From Flavobacteriales bacterium (GTDB lineage: Bacteria > Bacteroidota > Bacteroidia > JANQJC01): a stretch of DNA of 39,528 bases. The notes under the pieces were generated by a model. That model saw only the letters and a program-made list of their open reading frames with translations, had not been told where the DNA came from and made no database searches. The stretch covers positions 1 through 39,528 of the forward strand of contig JANQJC010000122.1 in the NCBI GenBank assembly GCA_028281825.1, in the 5' to 3' direction. Of this stretch, positions 3,777-10,752 are shown piece after piece; the first letter of the stretch is position 1; each line of letters starts with the position of its first letter. Position numbers and translations under genes: made by a program.

Positions 3777-4214
3777 CTAAAGAAGAGCTAATTCATTACA
3801 ATCTTTGCAAATCCCCTCGACCAGCATTGAAGAGTGAACTTCAGTAAAACCCTTTGGCAAAGGTACCGACGGTATTTCTCTGTCTTCAATACAATAAGTT
3901 TGATGGCAGGATGTACATTTAAAATGTATATGAGCATCCTGGTGTTCGTGCTTTGAACATGAGCTATTACACAAGGCGTATTTCACTTGACTTGAAGTGT
4001 CCAATACCTGGTGGATAATTCCCTTTTCTTCAAAAGTTTTCAGCGTGCGGTAAATCGTGACTTTATCCAGTTTTTCTTTTACACTATCATTAATATCATT
4101 ATATGATAACGCAAAAGGATATTTTCTAAACACCTTTAAAATACGCCTTCTGGTGGGAGTGAGTTTGAGGTTTGCCTCTTTAAGTAAGGCATCTGTTTCT
4201 TCCAATGATTTCAT
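3777..4214 (-). CDS. zur: Fur-family regulator, probably the zinc regulator Zur
   Basis: 145 residues. The winged helix covers about 10-80 (KLTPTRRRILKVF, then DKVTIYRTLKTFEEKGIIHQ). The dimerisation domain has the family's two structural-zinc pairs, C100/C103 (KCTSCH) and C136/C139 (ICKDCN), and an unusually His-rich sensor stretch around H89-H97 (SKHEHQDAHIHF) with C82 and C86 before it. Fur-family proteins repress with bound metal. The zinc assignment rests on context: it diverges from a COG0523 GTPase, a MerC-like protein, FolE and a TonB receptor, and GCAAC/GTTGC palindromes fill the intergenic space. Fur or another metal sensor is possible but less likely. The gene is probably self-regulated, since a -7 TACCTTTG at 4230-4237 lies close to the first palindrome. 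Confidence 0.8.
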   Translation of the reverse strand: MKSLEETDALLKEANLKLTPTRRRILKVFRKYPFALSYNDINDSVKEKLDKVTIYRTLKTFEEKGIIHQVLDTSSQVKYALCNSSCSKHEHQDAHIHFKCTSCHQTYCIEDREIPSVPLPKGFTEVHSSMLVEGICKDCNELALL

Positions 4215-4229
4215 AGAATAACGTTGCTA

Positions 4230-4257
4230 CAAAGGTAATTAAATAGTATCAATCAAA
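4230..4257 (-). promoter_or_regulatory. Likely zur promoter
   Basis: Minus-strand TACCTTTG (4230-4237) is a full -7 match. A TTTG at 4254-4257 is 16 bases upstream of it, slightly shorter than the usual spacing. The first GCAAC/GTTGC palindrome begins 6 bases further upstream, so the same operators could control both directions. Confidence 0.5.
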
Positions 4258-4263
4258 AATGAC

Positions 4264-4276
4264 GCAACTAGGTTGC
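4264..4276. promoter_or_regulatory. Zur-type operator 1
   Basis: GCAAC-TAG-GTTGC is an inverted repeat with 5-bp arms. Its right arm contains the TTG (4273-4275) that is the -33 element of the rightward operon promoter, so bound repressor would hide it from RNA polymerase. Confidence 0.7.
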
Positions 4277-4302
4277 ATTTGATTATTATTGAATTATATT
4301 TG
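4273..4302 (+). promoter_or_regulatory. Promoter of the zinc operon (TTG-N19-TATATTTG)
   Basis: TTG 4273-4275 and TATATTTG 4295-4302 are exactly 19 bases apart, a perfect Bacteroidota promoter. The -33 element overlaps operator 1 and the end of the -7 element overlaps operator 2. Transcription should begin near 4309, about 20 bases before the GTPase start codon. Confidence 0.85.
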
Positions 4303-4315
4303 CAACTTAGTTGCA
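4301..4315. promoter_or_regulatory. Zur-type operator 2
   Basis: TGCAACT-T-AGTTGCA is a perfect 7-bp inverted repeat around one base. It starts on the last bases of the -7 element and covers the expected transcription start, an ideal place for repression. Confidence 0.8.
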
Positions 4316-4329
4316 TTTAATAAATCAAA

Positions 4330-5547
4330 ATGAACCAAACAGCAAAACTTCCAGTAACGGTATTAAGTGGCTTTCTAGGAGCAGGCAAAACCACTTTATT
4401 AAATCACATTCTTCACAACAAGGAAGGGCTGAAAGTTGCAGTGATTGTGAATGATATGAGTGAGATAAATGTAGATGCCCAGCTCGTGGAAGATGGGAAT
4501 ACATTATCTCGCACAGAAGAGAAACTGGTGGAGATGAGCAATGGCTGTATCTGTTGTACCTTGCGTGAAGACCTTATACAAGAAGTTGCCCGCTTGGCAA
4601 AGGAAGAGCGCTTTGATTATTTACTCATAGAAAGCACTGGGATTTCTGAGCCACTGCCAGTAGCCCAAACTTTTTGGTTTGATAGCGAGGAGTTGAATGT
4701 AAACCTATCTGATGTGAGCAGACTAGATACGCTTGTAACTGTCGTTGATGGACTTAATTTCGCAAAAGACTTTGGTTCTTCGGACACCATATTGGACAGA
4801 AATTTAAACGATGACCCAGAAGATGGACGTACAATCGTCAACCTGCTTATCGACCAAATTGAATTTGCCAACGTAGTTATCATCAACAAAATTGACTTGG
4901 TTCCTCATGCCAGGGTCGTAGAATTAGGGAAACTCATTAACAAGCTCAACCCTGGTGCCAAGGTTATCCGCTCATCCTTTGGTAAAGTCCCTCTTTCTGA
5001 GATATTGGATACCGGGTTGTTTGATTATGAGGTGACTTCCCAGTCAGCTGGATGGATTGAAGAGTTGGAAAACGATCATATTCCTGAGACTGAAGAGTAT
5101 GGAATATCGTCGTTTGTTTACAGGACTAGAAAACCATTTCACCCAGAGCGGTTTTGGAAATACATCAATGAGAAATGGGATACTTCAATTATACGTAGCA
5201 AAGGATTGTTCTGGTTGGCTTCTCGTCCTGAACAGGCATTAAGTTGGAGCCAGGCTGGAGGGTCCTTGAGGGCTGAACCTGCTGGTGTATGGTGGTGTTC
5301 ATTATCTACTATCGAAAGAAATCAACACCCTGCCTTTCAGGCCAATGAAGAAGTAATCATGTCACGATGGGATAAAAACTATGGTGACAGAATGAATGAG
5401 CTTGTTCTTATTGGTCAGGATATGCAAAAGGAAAAGATAATCAGTGAACTGGAGGAGTGCCTATGCACGGAAAAGGAATACCAAGTTTATCAGTTAGGGC
5501 TTGTTCATGGCGATAAATGGCCTATTTATGAACATCAAAACGATTAA
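4330..5547 (+). CDS. COG0523 (CobW/ZNG1/ZagA-like) metal-chaperone GTPase
   Basis: 405 residues. The N-terminal G3E GTPase domain has the Walker [10 protein letters not shown] at 14-22, the family's metal-binding C73-I-C75-C76 (CICC), ESTGISEP and the base-recognition NKID. The C-terminal CobW_C domain starts at about residue 260 ([18 protein letters not shown]). These GTPases use GTP to load metals into client proteins; zinc members (ZNG1, ZagA/YciC) are controlled by Zur or zinc shortage. It is the first gene of the operon, directly behind the promoter and operators, and is followed after 3 bases by the 76-residue gene. In Bacillus subtilis the homologous ZagA serves FolE, and a folE lies four genes downstream here, so FolE is the best guess for the client. 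The identity as a zinc rather than cobalt or iron member is an inference from context. Confidence 0.9.
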
Positions 5548-5550
5548 TGA

Positions 5551-5781
5551 ATGGAGAATACAGTTTCATTGATGGAATACGAAGAGTGGAAGCATTGTAT
5601 TGTTGTTAGATGTAGAATTACCCTGACAAGGGACTTTATAGATAAGAGATTGGCAGAACTTGTAGATAAAAAGCACGAAAAAACTATTCAATTCGAGAGA
5701 CTATATGGGACGAGATACAAGGAGAGAATAGTAAATCACTTTAAAAGGGCACGTTTAGAATTAAAAGAAAAACTGACATGA
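5551..5781 (+). CDS. Small hypothetical protein in the zinc operon
   Basis: 76 residues, three bases after the GTPase stop and overlapping the next start by ATGA (5778-5781), so it is almost certainly translated as part of the operon. It begins with an acidic stretch and becomes strongly basic and helical (FIDKRLAELVDKKHEKTIQF, YKERIVNHFKRARLELKEKL). It has two cysteines (KHCIVVRCR) spaced by five residues and a few histidines. No family is recognised. A role as a small adaptor or metal-responsive partner of the GTPase is possible but unsupported beyond gene order. Confidence 0.65.
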   Translation: MENTVSLMEYEEWKHCIVVRCRITLTRDFIDKRLAELVDKKHEKTIQFERLYGTRYKERIVNHFKRARLELKEKLT

Positions 5782-6446
5782 TTGAAGCGTTGCAAGCAGT
5801 AAAAATAGCACATTACCAGTATGTTTCCGAGATTTCATCCTTGGATATCATCAAAGATGAAAACGTAAATATTGCCATATGCCAGAGGCCAGAAGCTGAT
5901 GGGTTAAATAAGTTTATAAAGCATCTGGCCGAAAGTAATTTCAGTTCATTCAATATGGCCTTGGACATTGCTGATTTTTCAGATTTGTTTGATGAGCATT
6001 TTAAGATATATCAATCCGTAGCATCTGGATACCACTTTTTGAAAAGTGACATCAATCAGCTTATTACCCTATTCAGCAATATTTGTGAGAGTTCTAATGT
6101 GAAAATCTTTTTTGGAAGAGTAGATACGGATATGTGCAAGCGATTTCATGTAGACATGTATGAACTTAGGATGCTTTGCACTTATACAGGCCCTGGAACT
6201 CACTGGCTCACAAATGATAATATTAACCATCAAGCTTTGGGCAGCTTTGAACCAAACAATGAAATCGCTTTGAGAGAAAATGACATTAGAAAGCTGAATT
6301 CTAAGGATGTTGCTATCCTTAAAGGAGCCTTAAGTCCAAACTCTAAGGCTGGGGCTTTGGTTCACAAAAGTCCAGCCATTCAGCAACTCAAACAAAAAAG
6401 AATCCTTTTGAGAGTGGATTGTAACTCATTATCTGACCACTTATAA
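5778..6446 (+). CDS. DUF1826 domain protein
   Basis: 222 residues, translationally coupled to the preceding gene. The central conserved block is that of DUF1826: CKRFHVD at 120-126, RMLCTYTGPGTHWL at 131-144, then N-x-x-H151. The N-terminal half (IAICQRPEA, KSDINQLITLFSNICE) and the C-terminal part (SKDVAILKGALSP, AGALVHKSPAI) also follow the family layout. Function is unknown, but DUF1826 genes are repeatedly found beside COG0523 GTPases. The H124-x-D126 pair followed by a second histidine and an aromatic Gly-Pro-Gly turn looks like the metal site of a double-stranded beta-helix oxygenase. That is inference only. The product has no signal peptide, so it should be cytoplasmic. Confidence 0.8.
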   Translation: MIEALQAVKIAHYQYVSEISSLDIIKDENVNIAICQRPEADGLNKFIKHLAESNFSSFNMALDIADFSDLFDEHFKIYQSVASGYHFLKSDINQLITLFSNICESSNVKIFFGRVDTDMCKRFHVDMYELRMLCTYTGPGTHWLTNDNINHQALGSFEPNNEIALRENDIRKLNSKDVAILKGALSPNSKAGALVHKSPAIQQLKQKRILLRVDCNSLSDHL

Positions 6447-6490
6447 TAGCGTTGATTTGTAACTCAATGGCATTTATGAAATGATATAAA

Positions 6491-6895
6491 ATGATTCTCT
6501 ATCGAAAAACAATCGACCCAGACTTTATTGGAGTTGCGGCAAGCAGTTTATGCTTTATCCATTGTGCTGCCACCCCTTTTTTGTTCGTTGCAAAGGTATG
6601 TTCGGAGACCTGCTGTGTTGATACCCCTATATGGTGGCAAGTAATAGATTACTTATTTATAATAGTCTCGTTTGCCGCGATTTACTATGCAACAAAAAAT
6701 TCGACTAAAAAATGGGTGAGAATAGCATTGTGGAGTAGTTGGGTTCTTTTGTTGCTTACCATTTTAGGCGAGACACTCCAACTTGGTTTTATACCTGAAA
6801 CCTTTATTTACCTGCCTGCCTTAGCGATAGTTGGGTTACATTTTTACAATTATAAATACTGTAAATGTAAACAGGATGATTATTGCATAGAATAG
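6491..6895 (+). CDS. MerC-domain membrane protein, possible zinc transporter
   Basis: 134 residues with four hydrophobic segments (about 12-35, 47-67, 75-96 and 100-118). The first segment carries the MerC signature with C21 and C25 (SSLCFIHCAATPFLF), followed by C37, C41 and C42, and the C-terminal tail adds CKC and a final Cys. MerC proteins bring Hg(II) across the inner membrane, but no mercury reductase or MerR is nearby. Placed between DUF1826 and folE in a probable Zur operon, this member is more likely to move zinc or another thiophilic metal. Start ATG 6491 lies 44 bases after the DUF1826 stop; the next gene begins one base after its stop. Confidence 0.75.
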   Translation: MILYRKTIDPDFIGVAASSLCFIHCAATPFLFVAKVCSETCCVDTPIWWQVIDYLFIIVSFAAIYYATKNSTKKWVRIALWSSWVLLLLTILGETLQLGFIPETFIYLPALAIVGLHFYNYKYCKCKQDDYCIE

Positions 6896-6896
6896 A

Positions 6897-7586
6897 ATGA
6901 AGATGGAAGAAGAGATTATTGAACAAGTGGAGGCGATTGGCAACAATCATGTCTCCACCAACGTGGAGACACCCTTGAGGAAAGATGCCTTTGACAAATC
7001 TGATGAAGAAAAGATAGAAAGCATCCACCTTCATTTTTCTAAAATAATGGAAGAGCTGGGCTTGGATTTAAGTGATGATAGCCTATCAGGTACACCATAT
7101 AGGGTTGCCAAGATGTATGTTAAAGAATTGTTCTATGGGTTAAATCCGCAAGCCAGACCTAAAACATCTACTTTTCAAAATAAATACGGCTACCAAAAAA
7201 TATTGGTGGAACAGAACATTAGCCTGAACTCTTCATGTGAGCATCATTTTTTACCCATTGTTGGTAAAGCCCATGTAGGGTACATTCCGAAAGATAAAGT
7301 AATAGGCTTGTCAAAAGTTAACCGCCTTGTAGATTATTATGCCCATAGGCCTCAGGTTCAGGAAAGGCTATGCCTGCAAATCGTGAAAGATCTTCAGGCT
7401 ACTTTGGATACAGAAGATGTAATTGTTGTGATACAAGCCAAACACCTCTGTGTATCATCAAGAGGGATAAGAGACCAAGAGAGCTTTACCACTTCAGTGG
7501 AATATGGAGGTGTATTTAATAACCAGGAACAGCGAAACGAATTTTTCAGGCTGGTAAGTATGCCCTTGTGTGAAAACTTAGGTTAG
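6897..7586 (+). CDS. folE: GTP cyclohydrolase I (type IA)
   Basis: 229 residues. The enzyme converts GTP to 7,8-dihydroneopterin triphosphate, the first step to folate or pterins, in the cytoplasm. The zinc ligands are present at the usual spacing: C114 and H117 (SCEHHFLP) and C185 (HLCVSSRG), matching C110/H113/C181 of the E. coli enzyme. Other family blocks are GTPYRVAKMY, GKAHVGYIP, GLSKVNRLVDYYAHRPQVQE and SFTTS. The first 30 residues are acidic and extra. This is the zinc-dependent form, unlike the zinc-independent FolE2 that many bacteria put under Zur. Finding it in the operon of a COG0523 GTPase suggests it is a dedicated, chaperone-supplied copy; a second folE may exist elsewhere in the genome. 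Confidence 0.93.
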   Translation: MKMEEEIIEQVEAIGNNHVSTNVETPLRKDAFDKSDEEKIESIHLHFSKIMEELGLDLSDDSLSGTPYRVAKMYVKELFYGLNPQARPKTSTFQNKYGYQKILVEQNISLNSSCEHHFLPIVGKAHVGYIPKDKVIGLSKVNRLVDYYAHRPQVQERLCLQIVKDLQATLDTEDVIVVIQAKHLCVSSRGIRDQESFTTSVEYGGVFNNQEQRNEFFRLVSMPLCENLG

Positions 7587-7666: not shown

Positions 7667-10081
7667 ATGGGTTTAAAAGGGATAATAGCAATAGGATTGT
7701 GTCTTTTGGCGCACACCGTTTTTGGGCAAGATACCTGTAACTATAGCATATCAGGCAAAGTGCTGGATGTGGACACCGATACCCCTCTGCCTTTTGTTGA
7801 GGTGAGGGTGAAGGATACCCAAAAAGCCACTATTACAAATATAGATGGTGAGTTTTCTATAACAGGCCTGTGTTCACCCAACAACACCATTCTTTGCTCT
7901 TGTGTAGGGTATTGTGACACTACTTGCAGGGCCTACCATGAGCACGGGAAAACGCACAACGTGTATCTCAAGACAAAAGTTACTGAACTTAATAGTGTAG
8001 TTATATCAGCAGGAAAAAATCGTGAACGTGGAACTGTATCTATTGCACAACTGACATTGGATAATAAAGACCTGGACTTGGCTACTACTCCCACTTTGGC
8101 TTCATCACTATCTCAAATACAGGGAGTTTCTTTTACATCAGTGGGAAGCAATGTTCAGTTGCCTGTAATTCATGGTCTTTATGGTAACAGGATATTGATT
8201 TTGAATAATGGGATGAAACATGGTTTTCAAAACTGGGGTTCAGACCATGCTCCTGAAATTGATATATCCAGTGCCAACAAAATAACCCTTGTGAAAGGTG
8301 CGGCGGGGGTTCGTTTTGGTCCAGAGGCACTTGGCGGCGCCATTATTGTTGAAAACAACCCTTTGTATCTCAATGAGCCTTTCTTTTTGAACTTGGGGGC
8401 AGGTTATCAAACCAATGGTAGGGGGTTTAACAGTTCCCTATCTTTGGGGCAGGGTTTTGAAAAATTCAGCTATTATCTGGGCGGAAGCTGGGTAAAAATA
8501 GGTGATAGAAATACGCCAGATTATGTGTTGACCAACTCAGGAAAAAGAGAGCAATCGTTTAATACTGGGCTGCGCTACAACTGGAAAAAAATAGATACCA
8601 AGATAATTTACAGTTACGTAAGGCAAAACCTGGCGGTTTTACGTTCTTCTATTGCTTCAAGCGGCAGTTCGCTAGTTCAGGCCATTAATTCTGACAAGCC
8701 TAATTTTATTCGTCCCTTTTCTTATGATATTAATCAACCTAACCAACAATTGGAACATCATTTTGGTAAGGCTGAAATATCGTATTGGTACACTGATGAG
8801 GCTCGTCTTACATTGAAAGTGGCGGAGCAAATCAACAATAGGCAGGAATACGATGTGAGGAGAAATGCTGACTTGCCAATCATAGACTTAAGCCTTTTTA
8901 CCAATGATGTGCAATTGGAGTGGAAGCATCCAAAGTGGATTGGACTTGACGGTTTGATTGGAGTACAATGGTTTACACAAAACAATTACAATAATCCAGG
9001 GACAGGAACAACTCCATTTATACCTAATTACAAAACAGCACGATATAGCGTCTTTATAACGGAAAGCTTGACCCAGAAAAAAAACACCTATGAATTGGGA
9101 GTGAGGCTGGATAATGAATACAATAGTGTTATTGGGCGAGAAACTAACCAGGATATTTTCAGGGATGAGTTTAGCTTCATCAACCTTACTGGTTCTGTGG
9201 GATATGTAAGAGAGGTTTCAGATGCAGTTACTTATCGAACCAATATTGGGTCGTCCTGGCGCACGCCCTTTATGGCGGAACTATACAGCTTTGGTCAACA
9301 CGGTTTTAAATCATTGTATGGCCTATTAAGGTACCATACTGACCATGAGGGAAATTTGAGAACAAACAAAGTAGTTGAATTGGCAAGTAGCGAAATATCC
9401 CCTGAAAAAGGCTACAAATGGCTGAATGAATGGGAGTACACGAAGGAAAAAACCACTGTTAGTATAACTGCTTATCTCAATTACATCCAAAATTTCATTT
9501 TCAGCAGACCCGTTGCTATAATAGGCACTATCAGAGGGCCAATGCCCGTATTTATTTTTGACCAGGCTGATGCACTGTTTGCTGGCTCAGACATCACATG
9601 GCGGCATAACCTACATAAGCGTGTTGAGGGAAAGTTAGGTGCCAGCTTATTGTGGTCCAAAAACATAAAAAAGGATGAGTCGCTTATCAATCAGCCACCC
9701 TTCTCAATAGACTATAAATTGACCTACCGACAACATACCAAGGGCATAATAAAAGGACTAACATTTGCTTTAAAGCCAAGCTACACATTTAGACAATATC
9801 TGGCGCCCCGCGCTATACACCCTCAAGATATAATTAATGGCACAGAAGAAATAGGTGTTGATTCGGAAATTTTTGATTTTAAAGATGCCCCCGAAGGATA
9901 TTTTCTTCTTAATGCTTCTGGTGGTTTTTCTATTGGGAGCTTCCAGTTCAATTTGGATATACAAAATGCACTTAATACACGATACAGAGACTACCTGAAT
10001 GAGATGCGGTATTTCGCAGACGAACTCGGGTTCAACATAGCTTTTTCAATCAATTATAAACTAAACAACAAATTAAAATGA
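7667..10081 (+). CDS. TonB-dependent outer-membrane receptor, probably for zinc
   Basis: 804 residues. A signal peptide (about 1-20, ending VFGQ) leads into a carboxypeptidase-D-like regulatory domain (about 27-105, with SGKVLDVDTDTPLPFVEVRV), a plug (about 115-225, with RGTVSIAQL and VKGAAGVRFGPEALGGAI), and a 22-strand-type barrel ending in IAFSINYKLNNKLK. The plug contains GMKHGFQNWGSDHAPEI and there is LEHHFGK near residue 362 and YHTDHEGN near 560, histidine-bearing pieces that could bind metal as in ZnuD-type receptors. It imports its substrate using TonB energy. Position in the Zur-type operon makes zinc the likely cargo, perhaps as a complex. The stop overlaps the next start (ATGA), coupling it to the lipoprotein gene. 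Confidence 0.88.
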   Translation: MGLKGIIAIGLCLLAHTVFGQDTCNYSISGKVLDVDTDTPLPFVEVRVKDTQKATITNIDGEFSITGLCSPNNTILCSCVGYCDTTCRAYHEHGKTHNVYLKTKVTELNSVVISAGKNRERGTVSIAQLTLDNKDLDLATTPTLASSLSQIQGVSFTSVGSNVQLPVIHGLYGNRILILNNGMKHGFQNWGSDHAPEIDISSANKITLVKGAAGVRFGPEALGGAIIVENNPLYLNEPFFLNLGAGYQTNGRGFNSSLSLGQGFEKFSYYLGGSWVKIGDRNTPDYVLTNSGKREQSFNTGLRYNWKKIDTKIIYSYVRQNLAVLRSSIASSGSSLVQAINSDKPNFIRPFSYDINQPNQQLEHHFGKAEISYWYTDEARLTLKVAEQINNRQEYDVRRNADLPIIDLSLFTNDVQLEWKHPKWIGLDGLIGVQWFTQNNYNNPGTGTTPFIPNYKTARYSVFITESLTQKKNTYELGVRLDNEYNSVIGRETNQDIFRDEFSFINLTGSVGYVREVSDAVTYRTNIGSSWRTPFMAELYSFGQHGFKSLYGLLRYHTDHEGNLRTNKVVELASSEISPEKGYKWLNEWEYTKEKTTVSITAYLNYIQNFIFSRPVAIIGTIRGPMPVFIFDQADALFAGSDITWRHNLHKRVEGKLGASLLWSKNIKKDESLINQPPFSIDYKLTYRQHTKGIIKGLTFALKPSYTFRQYLAPRAIHPQDIINGTEEIGVDSEIFDFKDAPEGYFLLNASGGFSIGSFQFNLDIQNALNTRYRDYLNEMRYFADELGFNIAFSINYKLNNKLK

Positions 10082-10701
10082 AAACTGAAACCTTTAGAAT
10101 GTCCAATGTAACAAGAATTGCTATTATACTTTTAATAGGTAGTGTGGCTATCACATCTTGTAAGAAAGAAGAAGTTCCGGAAGAAGAAAACGAAGTAGAG
10201 GTAATTACAGATGTGTCTCTTATTTTTACCAATGTAGCCGATGCCAATGACAGGGTAGTAGCGAAAGCCAAGGATCCTGACGGAGAAGGTGTGGAGGAAC
10301 TGGAGATATTAGACGAAATTGAGCTAGAAACAGGCAAAACTTATACTCTAACTTTCGAGATTTTCAATAACCTGGAAACACCGGGAGAGAATATTGGTGA
10401 AGAGATATTAGATGAAGATGATGAGCATCAGGTTTTCTTTTCTTTTACCAATGATGCTTTTACTGACCCAAGCGGAAATGGAAATATCGATAACGCTTCG
10501 GACGCGATTAATTACGATGATACAGATGACAATGGTAACCCTGTGGGTTTATCAACTACCTGGACAACGGGAACTAACCATACCCATGATGGTGAGTTTA
10601 GAGTGCTTTTGAAGCACCAGCCGGGAGTTAAAACACCGTCTTCAGGTTCTAATGATGGTGAAACGGACTTTGACATAACCTTTGAATTGCACATTCACTA
10701 A
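10078..10701 (+). CDS. Zinc-operon surface lipoprotein, partner of the TonB receptor
   Basis: 207 residues. A lipobox (AITSC, lipidated C28) follows a hydrophobic stretch, so the protein is anchored to a membrane, possibly facing outward. The mature part is very acidic (long Glu and Asp runs) and has DPDGEG, ILDEDDEHQVFFSF and a C-terminal HTHDGEF ... KHQPG ... ELHIH set of histidines. Similar proteins, often labelled type 1 periplasmic-binding-fold proteins, sit behind TonB receptors in other Bacteroidota. Acidic and His-rich surfaces suit metal capture. The start at ATG 10078 overlaps the receptor stop; an internal ATG at 10099 is also possible. The operon ends at a hairpin right after it. 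Zinc is inferred from context. Confidence 0.75.
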   Translation: MKTETFRMSNVTRIAIILLIGSVAITSCKKEEVPEEENEVEVITDVSLIFTNVADANDRVVAKAKDPDGEGVEELEILDEIELETGKTYTLTFEIFNNLETPGENIGEEILDEDDEHQVFFSFTNDAFTDPSGNGNIDNASDAINYDDTDDNGNPVGLSTTWTTGTNHTHDGEFRVLLKHQPGVKTPSSGSNDGETDFDITFELHIH

Positions 10702-10718
10702 TCACCAACCTTTTATTT

Positions 10719-10752
10719 GAGAGGAAGGTATCTTATATCTTCCTCTCATTCA
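10719..10752 (+). terminator. Terminator of the zinc operon
   Basis: GAGAGGAAG (10719-10727) pairs perfectly with CTTCCTCTC (10739-10747) around an 11-base loop, 17 bases after the lipoprotein stop. The following ATTCATTTC is only moderately T-rich, but the stem is long and it separates the operon from the next gene. Confidence 0.75.

Follow-up and report, generated by a model that had tools for sequence, protein, structure and literature searches.

The locus raises the question of whether two palindromes lying 38 bp apart, centre to centre (4270 vs 4308), within the 115-bp gap that separates a zur-like gene from a divergent COG0523/ZigA operon, form one regulatory switch, and which regulator would work it. 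Our analysis of the window, by which we mean the whole 39.5-kb stretch of DNA (39 528 nucleotides), indicates that the locus is in all likelihood a double Zur operator set within a promoter of the Bacteroidota housekeeping-sigma type, through which zinc-loaded Zur would repress a seven-gene operon. The upstream palindrome, box A (4264..4276; GCAAC-TAG-GTTGC, GCAACTAGGTTGC), is centred on A4270 and has perfect GCAAC/GTTGC arms with a mismatched inner T/G; with its flanks it reads CGCAACTAGGTTGCA, in which one T/A flank is changed relative to the consensus, and its partner box is conserved in relatives. The downstream palindrome, box B (4301..4315; TGCAACT-T-AGTTGCA, TGCAACTTAGTTGCA), is a perfect 7-1-7 palindrome with 7/7 pairs, centred on T4308, and it carries the GCAACNNNGTTGC core with T/A flanks that marks a ATGCAACNNNGTTGCAT-type Zur box. 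Only three other perfect 15-bp odd palindromes are found in the window. The initial annotation, which had described both palindromes and a distance of about 38 bases between their centres, was correct to the base.

Both boxes share letters with a predicted promoter. The Bacteroidota housekeeping-sigma consensus consists of TANNTTTG at -7 and TTG or TTTG near -33 (PMC7366714), and the plus strand matches it with TATATTTG at 4295..4302 and TTG at 4273..4275, the gap from TTG to TA being 19 nt. As first annotated, the TTG falls within box A's right arm and the -7 element runs into the left arm of box B, with which it shares the first two box letters (TG). By coordinates, one predicted operator thus covers the -33/-35 position and the other the -7/-10 position of the predicted promoter. 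The transcription start, previously placed near 4309, is better predicted at about 4307 (4307..4309, plus strand), on the dyad of box B, when the -12 to -5 placement of TANNTTTG in F. psychrophilum is used (PMC9723704).

The operon downstream is tightly packed, with gaps of -4 to 80 bp between its seven genes, all of which lie on the plus strand. It opens with a COG0523 GTPase of 405 aa resembling the zinc metallochaperone ZigA (4330..5547; Pfam cobW/CobW_C; 570.3 bits against the NCBIfam ZigA model, cut-off 600), followed by a small ORF of 76 aa without a family match (5551..5781), a DUF1826 protein (5778..6446; Pfam 153.8 bits), a MerC-family membrane protein (6491..6895; Pfam 73.9 bits) and a GTP cyclohydrolase I FolE, identified by family-model matches, which is the genome's second copy (6897..7586). 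A TonB-dependent outer-membrane receptor with Plug and CarboxypepD_reg-like domains and partial similarity to the ZnuD model (7667..10081) overlaps by 4 bases the gene of a putative lipoprotein of 207 aa (10078..10701), and a terminator-like hairpin with a 14-pair stem (10718..10748, plus strand) stands at the operon end. Genes for COG0523 proteins, spare FolE copies and TonB receptors repeatedly turn up as targets of Zur (PMC6103462; for COG0523 also PMC2770081). Relatives of the lipoprotein gene lie directly 3' of box pairs at three other loci (L055, L087 and L158). The other FolE copy is encoded at G000:C127:72152-72676 and has a higher family-model score than the copy in the operon.

Within the 4.02-Mb source genome the GCAACNNNGTTGC pattern occurs at five sites and the reversed control pattern at none; boxes A and B are the only intergenic sites, the other three falling within coding sequences, and the exact 15-mer TGCAACTNAGTTGCA occurs once. 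The pair is not attributable to chance, because two of only five genomic sites, with no control match, share the zur/COG0523 gap at a distance of 38 bp. Additional Zur-box-like sites with up to 2 mismatches were mostly intragenic or without zinc genes nearby, and were rejected. Among the candidates set aside were a 1-mismatch site at C80:44838 (TGCAACTAAGTTACA), flanked by a secreted-protein ORF and a glyoxalase-like ORF, and a 3-mismatch site ahead of merC (6458-6472), which is within chance expectation.

Recurrence was examined at the level of the class, in which the source genome is the sole sampled member of its family and order. Of 247 class genomes, 9 carry the exact 15-mer, with 11 occurrences in all against 2 control matches, and its neighbours placed it mostly upstream of zur, COG0523, MerC, TonB or ABC-transporter genes. 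A scan of 395 class genomes for pairs of GCAACNNNGTTGC boxes 21-51 bp apart gave 26 distinct cases, spread over 25 genomes, while the control pattern gave none. The pair scans demand exact arms and count only clean cases, so these frequencies are lower bounds; a Zur-profile hit was present in 155 class genomes, compared with the 25 that carry an exact pair, and most therefore have no exact pair. The profile also catches paralogues without a box, and many of its hits have no exact box nearby. In a tree of Zur proteins, which has too few columns for resolution, the box-bearing genes cluster.

A wider scan of GTDB genomes added many further pairs; among the matches listed, at least 42 of 80 loci belonged to Bacteroidota, and these include Winogradskyella, Aquimarina, Myroides, Sphingobacterium, Dyadobacter, Chitinophaga, Marinilabilia and Hymenobacter. 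As the initial annotation had proposed, relatives were searched for the motif, and box pairs were recovered beside zur and COG0523 genes. Winogradskyella (L072) and Chitinophaga terrae (L088) are among the relatives that share the window's layout. Oriented pairs were tabulated from hand-picked Bacteroidota loci with coding repeats excluded, and the spacing and -7 tests were redone on unfiltered sets. In the hand-picked table, zur stands beside 19 of the 44 oriented pairs (divergent in 17, downstream in 2), and 28 adjoin either zur or a gene homologous to one in the window operon. The genes downstream of these 44 pairs were COG0523 (7), MerC (7), the window-type lipoprotein (3), zur (2), DUF1826 (2) and a TonB receptor (1), while in 22 the downstream gene matched no window protein. 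At five loci (L149, L156, L157, L103 and L039) the gene directly 3' of the pair, in many cases divergent from zur, encodes an FAD/pyridine-nucleotide oxidoreductase (VIIGGSYAGLSAAMALGR) and is a putative recurrent Zur target. At four further loci (L071, L098, L147 and L153) the pair lies directly 5' of genes for ABC-transporter ATPases unlike ZnuC.

The proposal that the box offers a consensus for Bacteroidota Zur held in so far as it recurs throughout that phylum, but it is not exclusive to it, as an identical box has been predicted for the Zur of Desulfovibrio and is found in Betaproteobacteria and Campylobacterota. Near COG0523 or zur genes, GCAACNNNGTTGC pairs were seen in Betaproteobacteria (L034, L042, L074, L080 and L096) and in Campylobacterota (L068 and L089), where the spacing ranges from 28 to 49 bp and fusion to TANNTTTG is not seen.

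The alternative that survives best, although we regard it as unlikely, is that box B is the sole true operator, box A being either a degenerate remnant or an element that mainly serves the promoter of the divergent zur. The inner pair of box A is mismatched and the box is 49 bp away from the zur start codon on its upstream side, whereas box B is perfect, and in several relatives a single exact box is found near zur. On the zur side, the minus strand carries a candidate -7 element, TACCTTTG (4230..4237), recognized by its match to the consensus, as well as a single GCAAC half-site close to the predicted start of zur (4223..4227; GTTGC on the plus strand), which may be chance; together they make autoregulation of zur possible. 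Box A is not fused to this candidate -7. Against a single operator, an upstream partner with intact GCAAC/GTTGC arms is found at 36-40 bp in many unrelated genomes, and the box/promoter geometry repeated in relatives bears out the double-operator layout that had originally been described.

The spacing itself is clustered, as 18 of the 26 class pairs lie 36-40 bp apart (binomial P of about 2e-9 over the 21-51 bp searched). The linkers of 36-40 bp pairs from unrelated genomes have no common sequence except the promoter letters. Fusion to the -7 was scored by reading each pair in its better direction, with shuffled sequences as control. A perfect fusion of TANNTTTG to the downstream box was found in 11 of the 26 class pairs (shuffled mean 0.7, maximum 4) and, among the matches listed, in 17 of 45 pairs from unfiltered GTDB Bacteroidota (shuffled mean 1.1, maximum 5), far above the shuffled level in both sets; of the 43 listed pairs that belong to other phyla, 1 showed it (shuffled mean 0.4). 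In the hand-picked Bacteroidota loci, pairs at 36-41 bp place the TTG of the upstream box's right arm 17-22 nt ahead of the TA, while those at 28-29 bp place the left-arm TTG 20-21 nt ahead of it in 5/5 oriented cases, where the right arm would be too close. The promoter would thus best account for the spacing, with the -33 TTG supplied by either arm. One family of the class (L167-L171) has pairs 30-31 bp apart without -7 fusion.

These distances bear on a second alternative, which we hold to be somewhat less probable again than a lone box B, namely that two dimers cooperate and that 38 bp is fixed by helical phase for protein-protein contact rather than by promoter geometry. Spacings of 28, 38 and about 49 bp, the last found in some Betaproteobacteria, differ by about one helical turn, and in E. 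coli the dimers of Zur cooperate when they bind (PMC4219657). However, none of the 26 Bacteroidota class pairs lies at 41-51 bp, even though the search range ran to 51 bp, and the other arm's TTG accounts for the 28-29 bp class. Furthermore, the cooperativity of E. coli Zur involves adjacent dimers joined by a salt bridge, which a review restricts to enterobacterial and actinobacterial Zur (PMC6103462). Because the 28-29 bp pairs place the other arm's TTG at an equivalent distance from the -7, promoter geometry is favoured over dimer contact, and the 38-bp spacing is most likely set by the fixed distance between -33 and -7.

The regulator gene (3777..4214, minus strand) encodes a zur-like protein of 145 aa with the winged-helix and dimerization domain of the FUR family (Pfam FUR 51 bits, cut-off 23.1). 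Its best match among the curated NCBIfam models is Zur (PRK11639), yet at 46.2 bits against a cut-off of 167, which for this narrow model is a naming rule and not a biological definition. As this score is far under the cut-off, the zinc specificity of the regulator rests on its residues, neighbours and targets. The solved proteins that best match a profile built from five relatives include Zur of E. coli, M. tuberculosis and S. coelicolor. Two CXXC pairs (C100, C103, C136 and C139), as expected of the structural zinc site, are invariant in the five relatives and align to site A of E. coli Zur. The regulatory site B of that protein is formed by His77, Cys88, His96 and Glu111 (PMC4219657); H68 and C82, also invariant, align with His77 and Cys88, several His could stand in for His96, and the Glu111 position is not clearly conserved.

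Binding of the palindromes by another Fur-family member (Fur or PerR) or by an unrelated regulator is very unlikely in our estimation. FUR-family membership by itself leaves the metal unfixed, the NCBIfam Zur score is under its cut-off, and one Bacteroidales genome has a box pair without a Zur-profile hit. Set against this are the zinc gene content, the divergent zur, the closest solved relatives, which are Zur, and the assignment of an identical box to Desulfovibrio Zur, made independently (PMC545781); the genome's other FUR gene is located elsewhere, away from the box pair. The Zur reading given at the outset is thus upheld, as many Bacteroidota, unrelated to one another, carry the boxes together with zur and genes of zinc starvation.

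The Bacteroidales case concerns four loci (L030, L032, L050 and L094) at which pairs with a spacing of 37-38 bp precede the gene for a His-rich P-type metal ATPase. A TANNTTTG-like -7 follows the second box there at about 13 bp and is thus past both boxes. No Zur-profile hit was found in one of the four genomes. With the -7 past both boxes and one genome lacking such a hit, a regulator other than Zur may use the box sequence at these ATPase loci, and the layout is possibly an activator arrangement for an exporter or the work of that other regulator. A broader and rather doubtful idea is that operator pair and sigma promoter in Bacteroidota are one inherited module, the boxes giving the -33 TTG and part of the -7 TTTG, and that in some Bacteroidales the pair has moved upstream of the -7, which would let Zur or a relative activate the P-type metal exporter.

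That the palindromes are RNA hairpins or chance dyads is barely credible: inverted repeats close to a start site can fold as RNA, but the recurrence and control counts exclude chance, and with a start near 4307 neither palindrome would be transcribed whole.

For the double Zur operator that we favour, the arrangement suggests the following mechanism. With enough zinc in the cell, each palindrome would be occupied by a zinc-loaded dimer of Zur, the product of the divergent gene, the dimer on box A covering the -33 TTG and that on box B covering the end of TANNTTTG and the predicted start site; with both elements covered, RNA polymerase would be unable to bind or open the operon promoter. When zinc is scarce, Zur would lose its regulatory zinc and leave both boxes, and the operon would be transcribed, providing the COG0523 chaperone, DUF1826 protein, MerC, spare FolE, TonB receptor and lipoprotein.

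The general kind of this system, a double Zur box over a promoter with COG0523/FolE targets, is known. B. subtilis yciC and S. coelicolor znuA likewise have one Zur box over -35 and one over -10 (PMC6103462; for znuA also PMC5472717), and yciC is also a COG0523 gene, but their box sequence and sigma factor are different, whereas in the window some bases belong to both box B and the -7. A review suggests that the two boxes in znuA and yciC are bound independently, which would lead to tighter repression (PMC6103462). At the E. coli znuABC operator two dimers of one repressor also occupy one promoter (PMC4219657), although there adjacent dimers encircle one core element, in contrast to the separate boxes 38 bp apart in the window. 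For Cupriavidus metallidurans, a double Zur site is reported at the cobW1 operon, which includes COG0523 and a spare FolE and is derepressed when zinc starvation is severe (PMC11340326); the likeness is one of gene content and of the doubled site, and the FolE described there is of the metal-promiscuous IB type, whereas that in the window is type I. The palindrome itself equals ATGCAACNNNGTTGCAT, a prediction made in 2004 for the Zur of Desulfovibrio (PMC545781), and shares with it the GCAAC-N3-GTTGC core with flanking T/A and the position upstream of zinc uptake genes and zur. The Desulfovibrio site is single and lies upstream of znuABC-zur, unlike the pair on a TANNTTTG promoter in the zur/COG0523 operon gap.

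In summary, the paired boxes very probably form a genuine switch, one whose general type is known and whose design is specific to Bacteroidota. A Bacteroidota Zur box was not found in the open-access literature searched, Zur reviews included, and what appears new against that literature is the extension of the box pair across the phylum and its fusion to TANNTTTG. In F. johnsoniae the -33 element was not identifiable from global data (PMC7366714). Because the boxes carry promoter letters, their conserved spacing is independent evidence for a -33 TTG located 17-22 nt upstream of the -7. If the consensus and layout were tested, zinc regulons would become readable directly from Bacteroidota genomes.
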